Shown one piece after another: positions 28,915 through 35,797 of a DNA stretch of 45,866 nt. The notes under the pieces were generated by a model. The model was not told where the DNA came from and did not search any database. It saw only the letters and a program-made list of their open reading frames with translations. Source of the stretch: Aromatoleum toluolicum (GTDB lineage: Bacteria > Pseudomonadota > Gammaproteobacteria > Burkholderiales > Rhodocyclaceae); contig NZ_WTVS01000048.1 in assembly GCF_012911005.2 (NCBI RefSeq), positions 1 to 45,866 on the forward strand. Reading direction: 5' to 3'. How positions within the stretch are numbered: the first letter of the stretch is position 1; each line of letters opens with the position of its first letter. A program made the translations under genes and the position numbers.

Positions 28915-29478
28915 TCACGCCGCGGGAAGGTACATTGGATAGAGGATATCTTCCTCCCGCCGGATCCGGCTCACCAGGGCCTGCCCGATCGCAGCGAGAT
29001 CCTTCCGGAATGCCCCGGCGAGTTCCGAGTGACGGCCCAGCTCCTTGTACTTGTCCAGGAAATCGACGACGACGCGTCCGATTCCGTCCATTTCATGTCG
29101 AAACTCGCGCATCAGCTGGTGACTGACCGCGTCCGGCCGCAGGAAATGCTCCAGATAGACGTAGAGCCGGACGTTTTCCTTGAGCAGGTGATCCATGAGC
29201 GCGATTCTGAACTCCTCCAGCCGCCTCTGCACGACATCGAGCCGCCCGCCGTCGAGGGCCGCAGTAATGGCCGAATGAATATCCAACAAAGCCACGTGAT
29301 CCTGCATGAGTGTGGCGATCAGGGCCTGATCGTGCCGGATCTGCGTACCCGGCGCTGCGGCTCCCGTCGCCGGAGCGGCGGGCGCACGGACCGGCGCTAA
29401 TCCGGATGAGTCGCCCGCTGCCACCGCGGCCGGCGCCGCCCCCTTGATCCTGCCGAACAGCTTGTCGAGTAGGAACAT
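28915..29478 (-). CDS. Hemerythrin-like (HHE) domain protein
   Basis: A 187-aa protein. Residues 1-45 are an Ala/Pro-rich leader. The rest is a four-helix bundle with His61, His97-x3-Glu101 (HLLKE), His128 (FRHEM) and a final EEDILYP segment, matching an HHE di-iron domain. The start at 29478 follows GAGGG. Such proteins bind oxygen, NO or iron. Closeness to the predicted NO reductase cluster is suggestive only. The gap 29479-29678 holds nothing I recognise. Confidence 0.75.
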   Translation of the reverse strand: MFLLDKLFGRIKGAAPAAVAAGDSSGLAPVRAPAAPATGAAAPGTQIRHDQALIATLMQDHVALLDIHSAITAALDGGRLDVVQRRLEEFRIALMDHLLKENVRLYVYLEHFLRPDAVSHQLMREFRHEMDGIGRVVVDFLDKYKELGRHSELAGAFRKDLAAIGQALVSRIRREEDILYPMYLPAA

Positions 29479-29678
29479 GTTTCCCTCAGTGAAACAACGG
29501 TCATTCGCCAACTCGAGCGCGGCCGGATTCCTGGGGCTGGACCAGTCCTTCTACGGATAAGGGATTCGAGCCGCCGATCGATCCAAAAAGCATACACGGC
29601 CTTCATGGCAGGTTCTACCATGAAGGAAACATGGGAATAGGCTTCCACGCCCGCGCCGCGAGTGCGGCTGCCTTGCGA

Positions 29679-30176
29679 TCAGGGCGCCCGGCAATAGAAC
29701 TTCGAATCGACCGCCATCACGGGAAAACTCGCCGGCAGGTCAGCTCGGGCGATTTCGCGGAAGCCACTTTTCTCGTAGAAGCGATGCGCTGCAAGAAACT
29801 TCGCCGTCGTGCCGAGAAACACGTCATGCACATCGCATGTCCGGCACCACTCCAGCAGGGTTTCAAGCAGGTGCCGCGCGACGCCATGCCCCCCGCCGCG
29901 GTGCGAGGCCTTCACGAACATCTTGCGCAATGCCGCCTGGTTCGCGCCGATATCGAGCAAGCCGATGGTCCCGACGGGCAGGCCGTCGTCCAGCGCAACC
30001 CAGAAATTGCCGCGCCCCTGTTGATAGAAGCCGGGGATGTTGCGCAGATCGGGTTGCCCTTCCAGCGTGATCGGGATACCGAATTCGGATTGCTGGATGG
30101 GCAGGATCACATCGACGACACCGTCGGCATGCGCCGGCGAGTAAGGGGCAATCTCGATCATTCCTTTTCCTCTCAT
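29679..30176 (-). CDS. GNAT family N-acetyltransferase
   Basis: A 165-aa GNAT protein. The acetyl-CoA loop is HRGGGHGVARHLLE near residues 92-105, and FLAAHRFYEKSGFREI near 127-142 is the usual C-terminal motif. GGAGG lies 6 nt before the ATG at 30176. A second ATG at 30161 with AAGGA is also possible. The substrate is unknown. Confidence 0.85.
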   Translation of the reverse strand: MRGKGMIEIAPYSPAHADGVVDVILPIQQSEFGIPITLEGQPDLRNIPGFYQQGRGNFWVALDDGLPVGTIGLLDIGANQAALRKMFVKASHRGGGHGVARHLLETLLEWCRTCDVHDVFLGTTAKFLAAHRFYEKSGFREIARADLPASFPVMAVDSKFYCRAP

Positions 30177-30218: not shown

Positions 30219-33200
30219 CTAGTCCTCGCCACCCCGGGTCTCGCGCTGGAGACGCTGCGCCGCTGCGTACAATTCCTCGAAGGCAAGGGGCGACACGTTG
30301 AAGGTCCTGTCGCTGCTCGCCGTCGCCAGTCGGGTCCCGTCCGGGCTGAAGGCGAGGTCGCGCACGTCGTTCTTGTGCACGGTGATGGTCTTCACGAGTT
30401 CGAGCTTGTCCATGTCGAAGACCCTCACCCCGGCATCGTTGCACGCGACGGCAAGCTGCCTGCCGTCATGGCTGTATGCGATTGCGGCACAGTAACGAAC
30501 GCCGTCGATGGTGAAGGTGGCGACGGGCTCGGCATTTGGCTGCCCGAAGGCGCTGACCGGCCACAGGTACACACGGCGCTGCACGAGCGCGGCGACATGG
30601 GCGCCATCGGGGCTGAAGGCGAACTCGGCGAAGCGCGTCCCGAGCTTGCGCGCCGCCTCCGGAAGCTCGATCGTGCCGACATTCCGCGCAGCGAAGTCCC
30701 ACAACTGGAGCTTGCCATCGAAGCCACTGGTCGCCCACTGTTCCTTGCCCGGATGGAAAGCGACGGACGAGGCCTGGATGATGCTCTTGCCGCCATGCGA
30801 TACCGATACGGCGCGATAACCGCTGTCATCGAGTTCGTACAGCCACGCGTAGCCATCGGCGCCCGAACTCGCGAGCCGCTTGCCGTCGGGGCTGAACGCC
30901 AGCCCCCGCAACTGATCCTTGTGCTTTTGCAGGATGGCCGTCTGGGCGCCACTCGCCACGTCCCAAAGCCTGACCGTGTTGTCCAGCCCGGCGGTCGCGA
31001 CCTGCGCGCCTCCTGGAGCAAAAGCGACACGGAACACCTGACCGGTATGCCCACGCAGCATGTGGCGCAGGACCGGCGAACCGCCGGACAGATCCCAGAT
31101 CCTTGCCGTGCGGTCGCCGCTGCCCGTGACGAGCTGGCGTCCATCGGCGCTGAATGCGAGGCTGGTGACGGTCTTGAAGTGGCCCTCGATGTTCCAGAAC
31201 TTTACCGTTCCGTCGCGACTCGCAGTGGCCACATGGCGGCCGTCCGGAGTGAACTTGACCGCCTCGACAAAGGACGTATGGCCGACCAGCGTCAGCAGGT
31301 TTTCGCCGGTTTCGCTGTCCCAGATCCTGGCCGTGGAGTCGCCCGCGGAACTTGCGAGGTACCTGCCCTCCGGGCTCGCGGCCACATCCCGTACCCGGTC
31401 GCCGTGACCGGCAAGGATGCGCATGCTCCAGTCCGGATGCAGTGAAAGTTCGGCACCGGGCGGCGGGTTCGATTCGCCCACCCGGGCGAGCAGCTCGTCG
31501 AGCGTCTCGCCGGCAGGCTGCCACACGCGCACCCACGCGTCGCGGCTGGCGGTGACCAGGGATTTTCCGCCGTGCGTGAACGCCACGGCATCGCTCGCCT
31601 CGGTGAGCGGCAGCCGCAGGATCTCGGCGCCGGTTGTCAGGCTCCACATGCCGGCGGCGGTTCGGTCCCCCTCGCCCCGCTCCACGCAAGCCGTCGCCAG
31701 GCAACAGCCGTCCGGGCTGAAGGCGAGCCCCATGACCCACGCGCCACCGACATCGAGGGTGGTGAGCGGCACCGTTTCGGTCGCGGAGTCATCAAGCTCC
31801 CACACCTTGATCACACGCCCCTTGTGTTCCTTGTCACCGGCACCGCCCGTCGCAAGGCGCCTGCCATCCTGGCTGACGGCGAAGGCGCTGTAGATCGGGC
31901 TTCCGTGCTCGAATGTGCGGAGCGGTGTCTGCGGCGCATCGACCGCCCAGAGGTAGGCCTTGTCCTCGGCCGAGGTCACGAGCCGGTCGCCCGCGGGCAG
32001 GAAGGCGACATTGCGGACCCACTTGTCGTGAGCGAACGACGTCAGGGGTTCTCGCGGGCGCCCTTCGGCAATGTTCCACAGCTTGACCGTCTTGTCCTGG
32101 TCCGCCGTGGCCAGCCGGCGCCCGTCGGGGCTGAACGCCAGGTCCGACACCCATTTCTTGCTCACCGGCAAGGTCCACACCAGGCGGGAGGCCTGGATCG
32201 CCTGACGCAAGGCATCCTCGGCCACAGCCGTCGGCGCCAGCCCGATCCGCGCCGCGAAGGTCGGCGACAGGCCGAATGGTGCCGTCGCTTCGACCGCTTC
32301 GAGGGCGAGATCGAGTGCGCGCCCCGCATCGAAGGGCGCGATGGAGATCGATTCGGCCGCCTTCTGGTTCGCCCCGGAGCGCCGCTCCTCCCACGACGCG
32401 TAGATCCAGCCGGTGACTGCAGCGCCGGCCATCACGCCCAACGCGAACAGCCATTGGCGCAGCGCGCGCTTCGCGGCCTGCTCGCGCGCCTGCCTGACCT
32501 CGGCGGCTCGCCCCTGGTCGGCAACGTAGCGCCGGCGCCAGTCGAGAATCGCCGGCGCAAGCACGTCGTGGAACACCTCGTAGCGCGTCGCGTCCGGACG
32601 GTCGGGCACGGCAACGGTGCGCAGGATGCGGTTTCGCGCATCGGAGAGCGACCCCAGGACCTCGGGCACCTTGGGTGCCAGCTCGCCCGCCCAGCTGGTG
32701 AGGTCGGCCGCGCTGCAGGCGACCTTGCTGCCGGTCGGGGTGACGAGGCGATCGAAGAAGGTGGCGCACACCGCCTGACTGGTCTCGTCCAGTCGGGCCA
32801 TCGCATTGTCCAGGTGCGTGCGGACGATCTCGTTCGCGCCTTTCAGGCGGTCCAGCGTGGCTCGCCGCAGGGTGTACGAATGCGCTTCGCGCTCCTCCTC
32901 CCACAGCCGGACCATCACGAGCTGGAGGAAAGGCGCCTCGATGTAGCCATCGTCCGCCTGCCTACCGCCGCTGCCGCCGTGGCGACCCGCCGACACCTCG
33001 CCGATGCGCACCTGGCGCAGCAGCTCGTCGATCAACCCGTCCTCGATGTCGACGCGCGGCTGCCCCGGCGCCTGCCTGGCGTTCCACACCTCGAGCGGCT
33101 TGCGGATGGCGACGGCGGCCCCGGCAGTGTCGAGATGATTCAGCCGCAGGCGGTTGCTCATCAGGTTGTGAATGCGTTCCTGGAAGCGGTCGAGCTTGGA

Positions 33201-33743
33201 GAGGCTGTCGTCGCGCAAGGCGATGAGAAAGCCGACATCGACGTCATCGCGATTCACCGCACGGGCGAACTGCGCTTCGAAGGAGTTCGGGTCGGTGGAC
33301 TTGGGGTGGTAGAGGAAGTACTCCTCGAACTGGTCGAAGAGCACCAGGACGGGGCCGTGGGCCGCCTCGCCGCAGGCCCGCAGGACTTCGTCGAAGGGCA
33401 GCGACTCCGCCGGCTTCGGCTGGTCCGCATGCTGCGCCCACACGGCGTCGATGCACGCACGCGTCAGAGCAAGCTGGAAGTCGCGGTCCACCCAGTTGCG
33501 GAACACGACCACGGGGGTTTTCGGCCGTTCGCGACGCAACTGCGGAATCACCCCCGCCAACAACACCGAACTCTTGCCGACGCCGCTGGCGCCGTAAAGG
33601 ATCGTCAGCGGCGAGGACAGCAGGTTGGAGATGATGATGTGCTGGTCGCGCTCGCGTCCGAAAAAGAATTCGTGGTCGCGCTCCTCGAACGGCTGCAAGC
33701 CCACGTAGGGGCAGCGCACCCGTTCGTCGCTGTCCGCACTCAC
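30219..33743 (-). CDS. nSTAND NTPase with two WD40 propellers, probable defence sensor
   Basis: A 1174-aa protein. Residues 12-30 are the YVGLQPFEERDHEFFFGR lead-in of nSTAND proteins. Walker A is GASGVGKS (51-58) and Walker B VLVLFDQFEEY (132-142). A helical region follows, then a predicted transmembrane segment at about 431-452. From about 530 on I count 14 WD40-like units (AFSPDG then a Trp-Asp-like end), enough for two seven-bladed propellers. The GTG start overlaps the SIR2 gene stop by 4 bp (GTGA), so the two are translationally coupled. STAND ATPases usually sense a ligand through the repeat region and then oligomerise. Here that would trigger the SIR2 partner (inference). Confidence 0.85.
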   Translation of the reverse strand: MSADSDERVRCPYVGLQPFEERDHEFFFGRERDQHIIISNLLSSPLTILYGASGVGKSSVLLAGVIPQLRRERPKTPVVVFRNWVDRDFQLALTRACIDAVWAQHADQPKPAESLPFDEVLRACGEAAHGPVLVLFDQFEEYFLYHPKSTDPNSFEAQFARAVNRDDVDVGFLIALRDDSLSKLDRFQERIHNLMSNRLRLNHLDTAGAAVAIRKPLEVWNARQAPGQPRVDIEDGLIDELLRQVRIGEVSAGRHGGSGGRQADDGYIEAPFLQLVMVRLWEEEREAHSYTLRRATLDRLKGANEIVRTHLDNAMARLDETSQAVCATFFDRLVTPTGSKVACSAADLTSWAGELAPKVPEVLGSLSDARNRILRTVAVPDRPDATRYEVFHDVLAPAILDWRRRYVADQGRAAEVRQAREQAAKRALRQWLFALGVMAGAAVTGWIYASWEERRSGANQKAAESISIAPFDAGRALDLALEAVEATAPFGLSPTFAARIGLAPTAVAEDALRQAIQASRLVWTLPVSKKWVSDLAFSPDGRRLATADQDKTVKLWNIAEGRPREPLTSFAHDKWVRNVAFLPAGDRLVTSAEDKAYLWAVDAPQTPLRTFEHGSPIYSAFAVSQDGRRLATGGAGDKEHKGRVIKVWELDDSATETVPLTTLDVGGAWVMGLAFSPDGCCLATACVERGEGDRTAAGMWSLTTGAEILRLPLTEASDAVAFTHGGKSLVTASRDAWVRVWQPAGETLDELLARVGESNPPPGAELSLHPDWSMRILAGHGDRVRDVAASPEGRYLASSAGDSTARIWDSETGENLLTLVGHTSFVEAVKFTPDGRHVATASRDGTVKFWNIEGHFKTVTSLAFSADGRQLVTGSGDRTARIWDLSGGSPVLRHMLRGHTGQVFRVAFAPGGAQVATAGLDNTVRLWDVASGAQTAILQKHKDQLRGLAFSPDGKRLASSGADGYAWLYELDDSGYRAVSVSHGGKSIIQASSVAFHPGKEQWATSGFDGKLQLWDFAARNVGTIELPEAARKLGTRFAEFAFSPDGAHVAALVQRRVYLWPVSAFGQPNAEPVATFTIDGVRYCAAIAYSHDGRQLAVACNDAGVRVFDMDKLELVKTITVHKNDVRDLAFSPDGTRLATASSDRTFNVSPLAFEELYAAAQRLQRETRGGED

Positions 33744-35290
33744 GGCGTCATCCTCGAACGCAGGGTGCGGACAAACTCGTCTATCGTCACCTCATAGGGG
33801 TACACCCCGCGCTTCTGCCAGAACTTGAGCTCGAGTTCCGAGAACTGGTCGTCGATGGCCCAGGACTGGATCTCGTCGTCCCCTGCCGCGGCCGCCCGCT
33901 TGGCGAAGAAACGATTGAGGCTCTGCAGGATCGTGCGGAAGCTCCAGTCACGCAGGCTGTAACCGAGAAACAGCAGGTTGCGGTCGCGGCAATGCGTGGC
34001 GAACAGTGCCGGAATCGCGGACTTGCTGGCGATGCGCGACAGCAACTCCACGTAGTCCGATTCGGTGATCACGAAGCTGTCCCATTCGGACGTCTCGGGC
34101 AGGATCGACCCGTGCATCTTGAAGATCACGGTGGTCGTGTCGAGATCGATATAGAGCTCGTTGGGCGCCGGCGTCTGCGGCTGCGCGGCCCCATGCGGCC
34201 ACCACAGGACGGCATTGCCGAGATCCTTCAATTCGGAATAGACGACCAGGTCATAGGGCCGCTGGGCGGCGCGGAAAGCCTGCTCGATCTGGGTGTCGTA
34301 GTTGCTCGTGATGATCAGCAGCGGCCGCGACACTTCCGCCAGGAATCCGTACAGCGAAGGAATGGCGACCCCGGCGACTGCCTGCGGCGCAAGGATCTGG
34401 CGCAGGCGCTCATGCAGCGCGTCGCGCGTGTGGAAGGCCTCGTAGTACGACGCGACTTCGGCGAGTTGATCGCGCTCCTTCTCCGACGGGAACTCGGTAT
34501 CGTCCGCGAGAAAGAGCGAAAGCTCCGCACCGCTGGGCAGGAACCTGAGCTCCTGCGGATTCCAGCGGACATCGGGCGGACGCCCGGAGTGGCTGATGCC
34601 GTTGCCGATGATCGGCACGACCATGCCCGAATTCAGCGCCTTGACGATGCGCCCGTACGGCGGCGGCGCCTTGATCCGGGGCGCCCGCGCATCCGTTTTC
34701 CCTGCGGCGAGTTGATGTTCGATGAACGCCCGCAGGTCGAGTCGCAGGCGATCGCGAAATTCCTGCGGGGTGTCGTATTCGGCGTAGCCCCCCTTCAACG
34801 ATCCATCCGGGTTGCGGAACCGGTCGAAGAACGTCTTTACCCGGCGGAACTGCTGCACCCGCTCGTCGAAATCGGGATCGTTCGGATCACCGAAATCGGG
34901 CTTGCCCTTGCGGTGATAGACGAGGATGAAAGGCGGCGGTTTGGCCGCCAGCGCATCCTCGTACTCCCATTCGGTGCCGGAAAGATACGGGCTGCCGTCG
35001 GGCCGGGTGCAGGTATCCGGCAGCCGCGTGCCGAGCCGCGACCACAGGATGACGATGACGGCGTCGCATTCCGATGGCTTCGCCAGGCCGCGATTGACCG
35101 CATCCTGCGGGCTGAGGGTGGCGGGCATCGACACGGGCGCAGCCGGATCGTCCCAGCGCATCGCCTCGCATGTGATCTGGCCGCGCAGCAGCGGGTCTTT
35201 CGGCAGTTCCTGCTCGATGACCTGCTGCGCGAAGGTGCGCTCGTCGGCGACATCTCCCGGTGAGGACAGGAAAAAACGGAGATGCAGCAT
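33740..35290 (-). CDS. DUF4062-SIR2 domain protein, probable NADase effector
   Basis: A 516-aa protein. Residues 1-125 are a DUF4062-like domain (LRFFLSSPGDVADER, then DAVIVILWSRLGTRLP and GTEWEYEDALAA), a fold related to TIR. Residues about 215-460 are a SIR2-like domain: IIGNGIS (227-233), SNYDTQIE with Asn330, FKMHGS with His393, and LFLGYSLRDWSFRTIL. The catalytic Asn and His are both present, so NAD+ cleavage is plausible. GGGGAGG precedes the ATG. It is the first gene of a two-gene operon with the nSTAND-WD40 gene. No signal peptide or membrane segment is visible. Confidence 0.85.
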   Translation of the reverse strand: MLHLRFFLSSPGDVADERTFAQQVIEQELPKDPLLRGQITCEAMRWDDPAAPVSMPATLSPQDAVNRGLAKPSECDAVIVILWSRLGTRLPDTCTRPDGSPYLSGTEWEYEDALAAKPPPFILVYHRKGKPDFGDPNDPDFDERVQQFRRVKTFFDRFRNPDGSLKGGYAEYDTPQEFRDRLRLDLRAFIEHQLAAGKTDARAPRIKAPPPYGRIVKALNSGMVVPIIGNGISHSGRPPDVRWNPQELRFLPSGAELSLFLADDTEFPSEKERDQLAEVASYYEAFHTRDALHERLRQILAPQAVAGVAIPSLYGFLAEVSRPLLIITSNYDTQIEQAFRAAQRPYDLVVYSELKDLGNAVLWWPHGAAQPQTPAPNELYIDLDTTTVIFKMHGSILPETSEWDSFVITESDYVELLSRIASKSAIPALFATHCRDRNLLFLGYSLRDWSFRTILQSLNRFFAKRAAAAGDDEIQSWAIDDQFSELELKFWQKRGVYPYEVTIDEFVRTLRSRMTP

Positions 35291-35419
35291 GTGCGCGCCC
35301 TCCCCGAAATACGTTTGTACTATCCCGGGAAATATAGCTCATACCATCAGGTTTGCCGGCGCAGCACATTCTCCTGTCACGATGCCGTTGGAGTTGCCGT
35401 GGCGAAGCACGACCGCAGG

Positions 35420-35797
35420 TCAGCGGCTGCAGGACGCCCGCACGTGCGACGGGAAGGCCAGCACGAGGAAGGTCAGCATCAGCACGGCGACCAGCAGCGG
35501 CCAGAAGGCCGGCGGGCGCGAGAAGCTGAAGTGCTCGACGAGCACGCTCCCGACGCGGTAGAGCTGGTAGGCGGCCGCCCCCATGCCGAGCCACCACGCC
35601 CAGCGATAGTGTTTCAGCAGCCCCCATGCGACCAGGATGCCGATCAGCCCCATGATCCACGTCAGGGGCTGCGAGAAGCTGAAGCGCAGCATGAAGGCGT
35701 CGCCCGACAGGGCGATACGGATCACGGTACCGCCAAGCACGATGGCGGAGAAGGCCACGGCGGTCGCCGCGGCAAGGTGAATGCGGGTGATGGCCAT
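35420..35797 (-). CDS. Hypothetical membrane protein
   Basis: A 125-aa protein with about four hydrophobic helices (ITRIHLAAATAVAFSAIVLGG, WIMGLIGILVAWGLL, WWLGMGAAAYQLY, FWPLLVAVLMLTFLVLAF). I chose the ATG at 35797 (MAITRIH); the open frame extends upstream without a ribosome site. I recognise no family. It lies 129 bp upstream of the SIR2 gene start on the same strand, but nothing ties it to that system. Confidence 0.55.
   Translation of the reverse strand: MAITRIHLAAATAVAFSAIVLGGTVIRIALSGDAFMLRFSFSQPLTWIMGLIGILVAWGLLKHYRWAWWLGMGAAAYQLYRVGSVLVEHFSFSRPPAFWPLLVAVLMLTFLVLAFPSHVRASCSR

Follow-up and report, generated by a model that had tools for sequence, protein, structure and literature searches.

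In the accessible part of a 2026 preprint (PMC13174449), the DUF4062 domain of other proteins is shown to be a TIR-like NADase, and the products formed by the DUF4062 of Swarozyc (KpSwz) are ADP-ribose and nicotinamide. For Avs5, the available portion of PMC12931631 gives GAGXS and TTNXD as the SIR2 motifs. The present analysis concerns two genes of Aromatoleum toluolicum, gene A (DUF4062-SIR2) and gene B (nSTAND1-WD40), which lie within a stretch of 45,866 nucleotides (NZ_WTVS01000048.1; the window) that is one entire contig of a 6.16 Mb genome (Table 1). We propose that they form a mobile two-gene conflict cassette, probably anti-phage, in which a STAND-triggered depletion of nicotinamide adenine dinucleotide (NAD+) would be passing from SIR2 to DUF4062, leaving SIR2 mainly as a scaffold. 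On balance, we lean towards this account.

The results from Pfam analysis indicate that the product of gene A contains SIR2_2 (E value 3.2e-26) and, below the family cut-off, DUF4062 (E value 0.0072; 16.9 bits versus a cut-off of 24.7). These two families alone were listed at E values up to 1, with neither SLOG nor any other ligand domain. Because residues 3-200 share 30-46% identity with the DUF4062 end of other proteins, the assignment is considered secure despite the low score; by sequence profile, the best match of the domain in the PDB had an E value of 0.2. This part was poor in the full-length model of gene A (predicted local distance difference test score, pLDDT, ~60) and was hence refolded separately, which gave a model with pLDDT 85 and TIR domains at the top of its structure (VIA) list. 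Together with the preprint, this bears out the TIR-like character that an earlier note on this DNA had claimed for the domain. The overlapping gene pair and the STAND nucleoside triphosphatase (NTPase) partner with large repeats, both proposed in that note, were found as described: both open reading frames (ORFs) exist, and gene B matches nSTAND1 (E value 7.8e-43) and contains 12 WD40 stretches. In DUF4062, E109 is invariant in the alignments and is kept in all eight fused proteins found; it would be the equivalent of E97 in KpSwz, as judged from its location in the helix that follows the third strand rather than from an alignment with KpSwz itself. Two other DUF4062 proteins were observed, one on a viral contig (L112:3974-5410; 46-47% identical to the DUF4062 of the window, the C-terminal half repeat-like by eye) and one in the same bacterial family (L072:1486-3588), where the domain is fused to an ATPase judged by eye to be of NB-ARC type.

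Relatives of gene A were sought with a pattern scan of one genome per species (84,980 species), seeded with an alignment of gene A and two further sequences. The scan, which used two short peptides and is not exhaustive, yielded 161 stretches and 37 confirmed loci; linkage information played no part in it, and one locus, L059, is the same as that which gave the seed L021. In all 37, the SIR2 gene has an nSTAND1 gene as its same-strand neighbour, 34 times downstream and three times upstream (L043, where a WD40 ORF intervenes; L045, whose nSTAND1 frame is broken; and L050). A first adjacency rule had given no downstream partner in 13 loci, owing to start-codon and length rules or to an upstream partner, and tblastn recovered all 13. 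The homologues of both genes are thus very strongly linked, across six phyla (Pseudomonadota, Chloroflexota, Acidobacteriota, Verrucomicrobiota, Actinomycetota, and candidate division KSB1). Moreover, the SIR2 and nSTAND1 distances are correlated (r 0.85 over 35 rows; Mantel test, 0 of 2000 permutations); both this test and the SIR2 tree are without L045, L047, L063 and L064, in which nSTAND1 is cut or broken, and without the genomes G789 and G899. In contrast, of four plasmid records whose SIR2 matches are more distant, two have the gene in nif clusters, one near a siderophore receptor, and the fourth is unannotated; no STAND gene is listed in the three annotated records. The linkage is therefore a property of the SIR2 subfamily of gene A and not of SIR2_2 generally. 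The nif-cluster genes are L028:5977-6819 and L029:5926-6789, on Methylococcus and Bradyrhizobium plasmids. More distant SIR2-nSTAND1 pairs were also seen in a genome of the gammaproteobacterial class (G466; L022:1979-5040 and L023:997-6818), in which SIR2 is preceded by ~190 additional residues unassigned in Pfam. No description of this widespread gene pair, which is defined here, was found in the literature searched, nor of the DUF4062-SIR2 arrangement that the earlier note had called uncharacterised.

The DUF4062-SIR2 fusion is present in eight genomes (five Aromatoleum, two Thauera and one Methylococcaceae), including the window, G789 and G899. It is carried by five of the 37 loci, namely those of Aromatoleum tolulyticum, A. 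evansii, Thauera aminoaromatica, a Thauera metagenome-assembled genome (MAG), and a Methylococcaceae MAG. An unfused pair occurs in Aromatoleum diolicum (L046). The six fused rows form one clade in the SIR2 tree (100/100), which indicates a single fusion event. Among 398 genomes of the phylum, a full-length match to gene A was found only in the genome of the window, while eight others had matches to DUF4062 alone; the three of these that were checked against nSTAND1 proved to be DUF4062-nSTAND1 chains. Thus, DUF4062 often fronts a STAND protein, and here it is attached to the partner of the STAND protein instead.

The predicted structure of the SIR2 part is of the antiphage NADase type (L064 and L065 were left out of the structure alignment), and the catalytic N330 and H393 are where the earlier note placed them; the motifs ITExDY and LFLGYSLxDW are likewise retained. 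The note's reading of SIR2 as an intact catalyst, however, is weakened. In the window the GAG loop has become GNG; the loop is altered in seven of the eight fused members, and in the eighth, the Methylococcaceae MAG, the His has given way to Tyr, a change seen in this one MAG. Neither alteration is seen in any of the 31 scorable unfused loci. If SIR2 and DUF4062 were both active NADases, with additive effects and a safeguard should phage inhibit one of the folds, the retained residues would be expected, as would the ratio of nonsynonymous to synonymous substitution of SIR2, which is as low as that of DUF4062 (0.01-0.14 in close pairs). Nevertheless, the changes that set the fused members apart, as well as the motif-less SIR2 of the parallel family described next, speak against such a dual enzyme, which we consider unlikely while taking it seriously.

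A second pair, which the earlier note overlooked along with the GNG loop and a hydrophobic segment in gene B, is located on contig C2 of the same genome (G000:C2, L027:1063-5977). It comprises a 466-residue protein, SIR2-like with a C-terminal TIR_2 domain, followed by nSTAND1-WD40. Among 300 genomes of the order, matches to the 466-residue protein were present in five, its own included. A further five loci, near full length and spread over four genomes, brought the SIR2-TIR loci examined to six; two other matches covered the TIR alone. An nSTAND1 gene is next in all six. The GxG, Asn and His motifs are absent from every one, while the Glu-Trp of TIR is kept. In Pfam, TIR_2 was matched in all six, and SIR2_2 was above the cut-off in three, below it in two and unlisted in one; a profile comparison of the N-terminus with the SIR2 family gave a probability of 98.8% over 263 columns. 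With a TIR attached, SIR2 can thus remain the partner of nSTAND1 even after losing its motifs. More tentatively, and with slightly less than even credence, we suggest that SIR2 can be demoted to a scaffold in STAND immune pairs, and that TIR-fold NADases have replaced it at least twice, by an N-terminal DUF4062 (under way) and by a C-terminal TIR_2 (complete), both within one genome. If so, many proteins now labelled SIR2 NADases would be adaptors. Canonical SIR2, altered SIR2 plus DUF4062, and motif-less SIR2 plus TIR form a natural series for testing the exchange of NADases.

Conversely, SIR2 might be the executioner, as in Avs5 and DSR2, with DUF4062 as an assembly or sensing domain. DUF4062 was not seen in 32 of the 37 loci (one of them, L064, being cut at its start), and these would work, if at all, by SIR2 alone; furthermore, according to the accessible part of PMC13174449, human NWD1, NWD2 and NPHP3 are without NADase activity, TEP1 being active. 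The invariance of E109, whereas the SIR2 loop varies, makes this role for SIR2 improbable.

In gene B, the hydrophobic segment 431-450 peaks at a hydropathy of 1.54, versus a threshold of 1.8. In 27 of the 37 relatives a segment just after nSTAND1 exceeds the threshold; the remaining ten are four Aromatoleum or Thauera members (peaks of 1.37 in both Thauera), two cut earlier, one with a broken frame, and three with segments only further along. The hydropathy pattern suggests that the nSTAND1 partner family is likely tethered to the membrane, and a single helix combined with a cytoplasmic NTPase would place WD40 in the periplasm. The WD40 end diverges faster than nSTAND1, and the C-terminal ends of unfused relatives are variously TPR, HEAT (L023, of a more distant pair), TPR-S plus patatin, or subtilase plus FGE-sulfatase. 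The latter two, in L021:2243-6136 and L049:3280-6777, are nSTAND1 proteins with a SIR2 partner and may hold a second effector within the sensor protein.

In the proposed mechanism, the nSTAND1 NTPase of gene B, probably tethered to the inner membrane, would oligomerise once its WD40 repeats sense an intruder or the damage that it causes. Gene A would be the effector, with SIR2 as the conserved contact to nSTAND1 and DUF4062 as a TIR-like NADase; once clustered on the assembled gene B protein, it would start to cleave NAD+, and growth arrest or death would follow. In this lineage the NADase work would be passing to DUF4062, with SIR2 kept mainly for docking or oligomerising.

The fused gene is present in five of 17 genomes of the genus, and the four other Aromatoleum carriers (L101, L103, L104 and L105) have both flanks in common with the window. 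The site was read in six of the 12 non-carriers. In L109 and L110 the cassette and the GNAT gene are missing, such that window position 29677 falls within 12-16 bp of 35418-35422, and in L108 and L111 the hemerythrin-like gene is missing as well. L106 retains the GNAT gene, but the cassette is replaced by ~1.3 kb of different sequence, and in L107 the site holds ~2 kb of different sequence. Alignment to the window is confined to 30245-35286 for the Thauera loci and to 32536-35284 for the Methylococcaceae locus. Based on these empty sites in congeners and on the restriction of the similarity to the cassette in the other two groups, the cassette moves. The adjacent hemerythrin-like and GNAT genes (28915-30176) are also present or absent between congeners and mark a variable spot.

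The neighbourhoods lend little to a role in defence, and this weighs against our account. Among 174 of 209 neighbour ORFs scanned (of the 35 left out, 19 were from two Aromatoleum loci), there were 12 PADLOC matches at 1e-15, a weak linkage for which the background rate was not measured; three of the 12 are RTasPolA and are very probably the DNA polymerase I genes beside the Chloroflexota pairs. In these loci (L040, L041 and L042) the SIR2-nSTAND1 pair immediately precedes DNA polymerase I, with ORF overlaps of 4 to 20 bp. Of the ten ORFs scanned in the flanks within the window, seven matched Pfam families, none of them out of the ordinary (GNAT acetyltransferase, hemerythrin-like, GST, GFA, DUF3592, AHSA1, and AAA, the last in an ATPase that also matches GspA weakly). 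The ordinary chromosomal flanks, the scarcity of linked defence genes and the distant SIR2_2 relatives in nif clusters would suit a housekeeping or developmental NAD-linked regulator. However, the patchy presence, the empty sites, the unrelated contexts in other genera and the fast-changing, swappable sensor ends leave little probability for a function of that kind.

Searches for a known system gave no PADLOC model covering gene A or gene B. Partial matches were to ThsA (gene A residues 385-463), PDC-S25, LmuA and others on SIR2, to PDC-S60 on DUF4062, and to HEAT-ARM_XIII on the WD40 part of gene B. Gene A was without a match in NCBIfam, and gene B had only matches far below cut-off. Gene A was unmatched in phage records at 1e-5; viral contigs held one distant SIR2 locus and two DUF4062 loci, with no DUF4062-SIR2 fusion among them; and 14 plasmid records, of which seven were opened, gave partial matches to gene A, none over more than 80% of its length.

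Table 1. Coordinates of the gene pair and its domains and residues in the window.
Feature	Position	Strand	Basis
Gene A, DUF4062-SIR2 protein, 516 residues, ATG start	33740-35290	minus	ORF, Pfam, full-length homologues in 7 other genomes
Gene B, nSTAND1-(putative membrane helix)-WD40 protein, 1174 residues, GTG start	30219-33743	minus	ORF, Pfam
Overlap of genes A and B, 4 bp	33740-33743	minus	ORF coordinates
DUF4062 (TIR-like) domain, gene A residues 1-198	34697-35290	minus	Pfam below cut-off, homology, model
E109 in GTEWE, predicted catalytic Glu of DUF4062	34964-34966	minus	Invariant in alignments
SIR2 domain, gene A residues 209-512	33755-34666	minus	Pfam, structure model
G229-N230-G231, altered GAG loop of SIR2	34598-34606	minus	Motif role from accessible part of PMC12931631
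N330 in TSNYD of SIR2, kept	34301-34303	minus	Alignment
H393 in KMHG of SIR2, kept in the window; Tyr in the Methylococcaceae homologue	34112-34114	minus	Alignment
nSTAND1 NTPase, gene B residues 12-423, with GASGVGKS and LVLFDQFEE	32475-33710	minus	Pfam
Putative membrane helix, gene B residues 431-450	32394-32453	minus	Hydropathy alone, below threshold in the window
WD40 repeats, gene B residues ~529-1148, probable sensor	30300-32159	minus	Pfam

In Thoeris, ThsA and ThsB are separate proteins, linked through a cyclic nucleotide with SLOG as its receptor. A one-chain Thoeris, in which a cyclic ADP-ribose signal made by DUF4062 activates the SIR2 of the same protein, would unite both Thoeris activities and fit the ThsA profile matches on SIR2, but the absence of any listed ligand domain and the KpSwz products make it scarcely credible. 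Gene A differs from ThsA in having no SLOG beside SIR2 in its Pfam listing, and DSR2, KomC and SIR2-HerA have other partners and sensors. Avs5 joins SIR2 and STAND in one chain, rather than in two overlapping genes, and has GAGXS, the canonical loop, and TTNXD where the window has GNGIS and TSNYD; neither DUF4062 nor WD40 is mentioned for it in the available portion of PMC12931631. With Swarozyc, as presented in the accessible part of PMC13174449, the locus has in common a DUF4062 with a conserved Glu and predicted NAD+ cleavage. KpSwz, however, is encoded by one gene and carries at its C-terminus a winged-helix AUX domain that binds the portal; gene A lacks this domain, has SIR2 as its C-terminal part and is paired with a separate STAND-WD40 protein as the sensor. 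Human TEP1 (DUF4062-NACHT-WD40, from the same part of PMC13174449) likewise combines DUF4062, a STAND-type ATPase and WD40, although in one chain; here its DUF4062-STAND-WD40 plan is divided between two bacterial genes, with SIR2 added.
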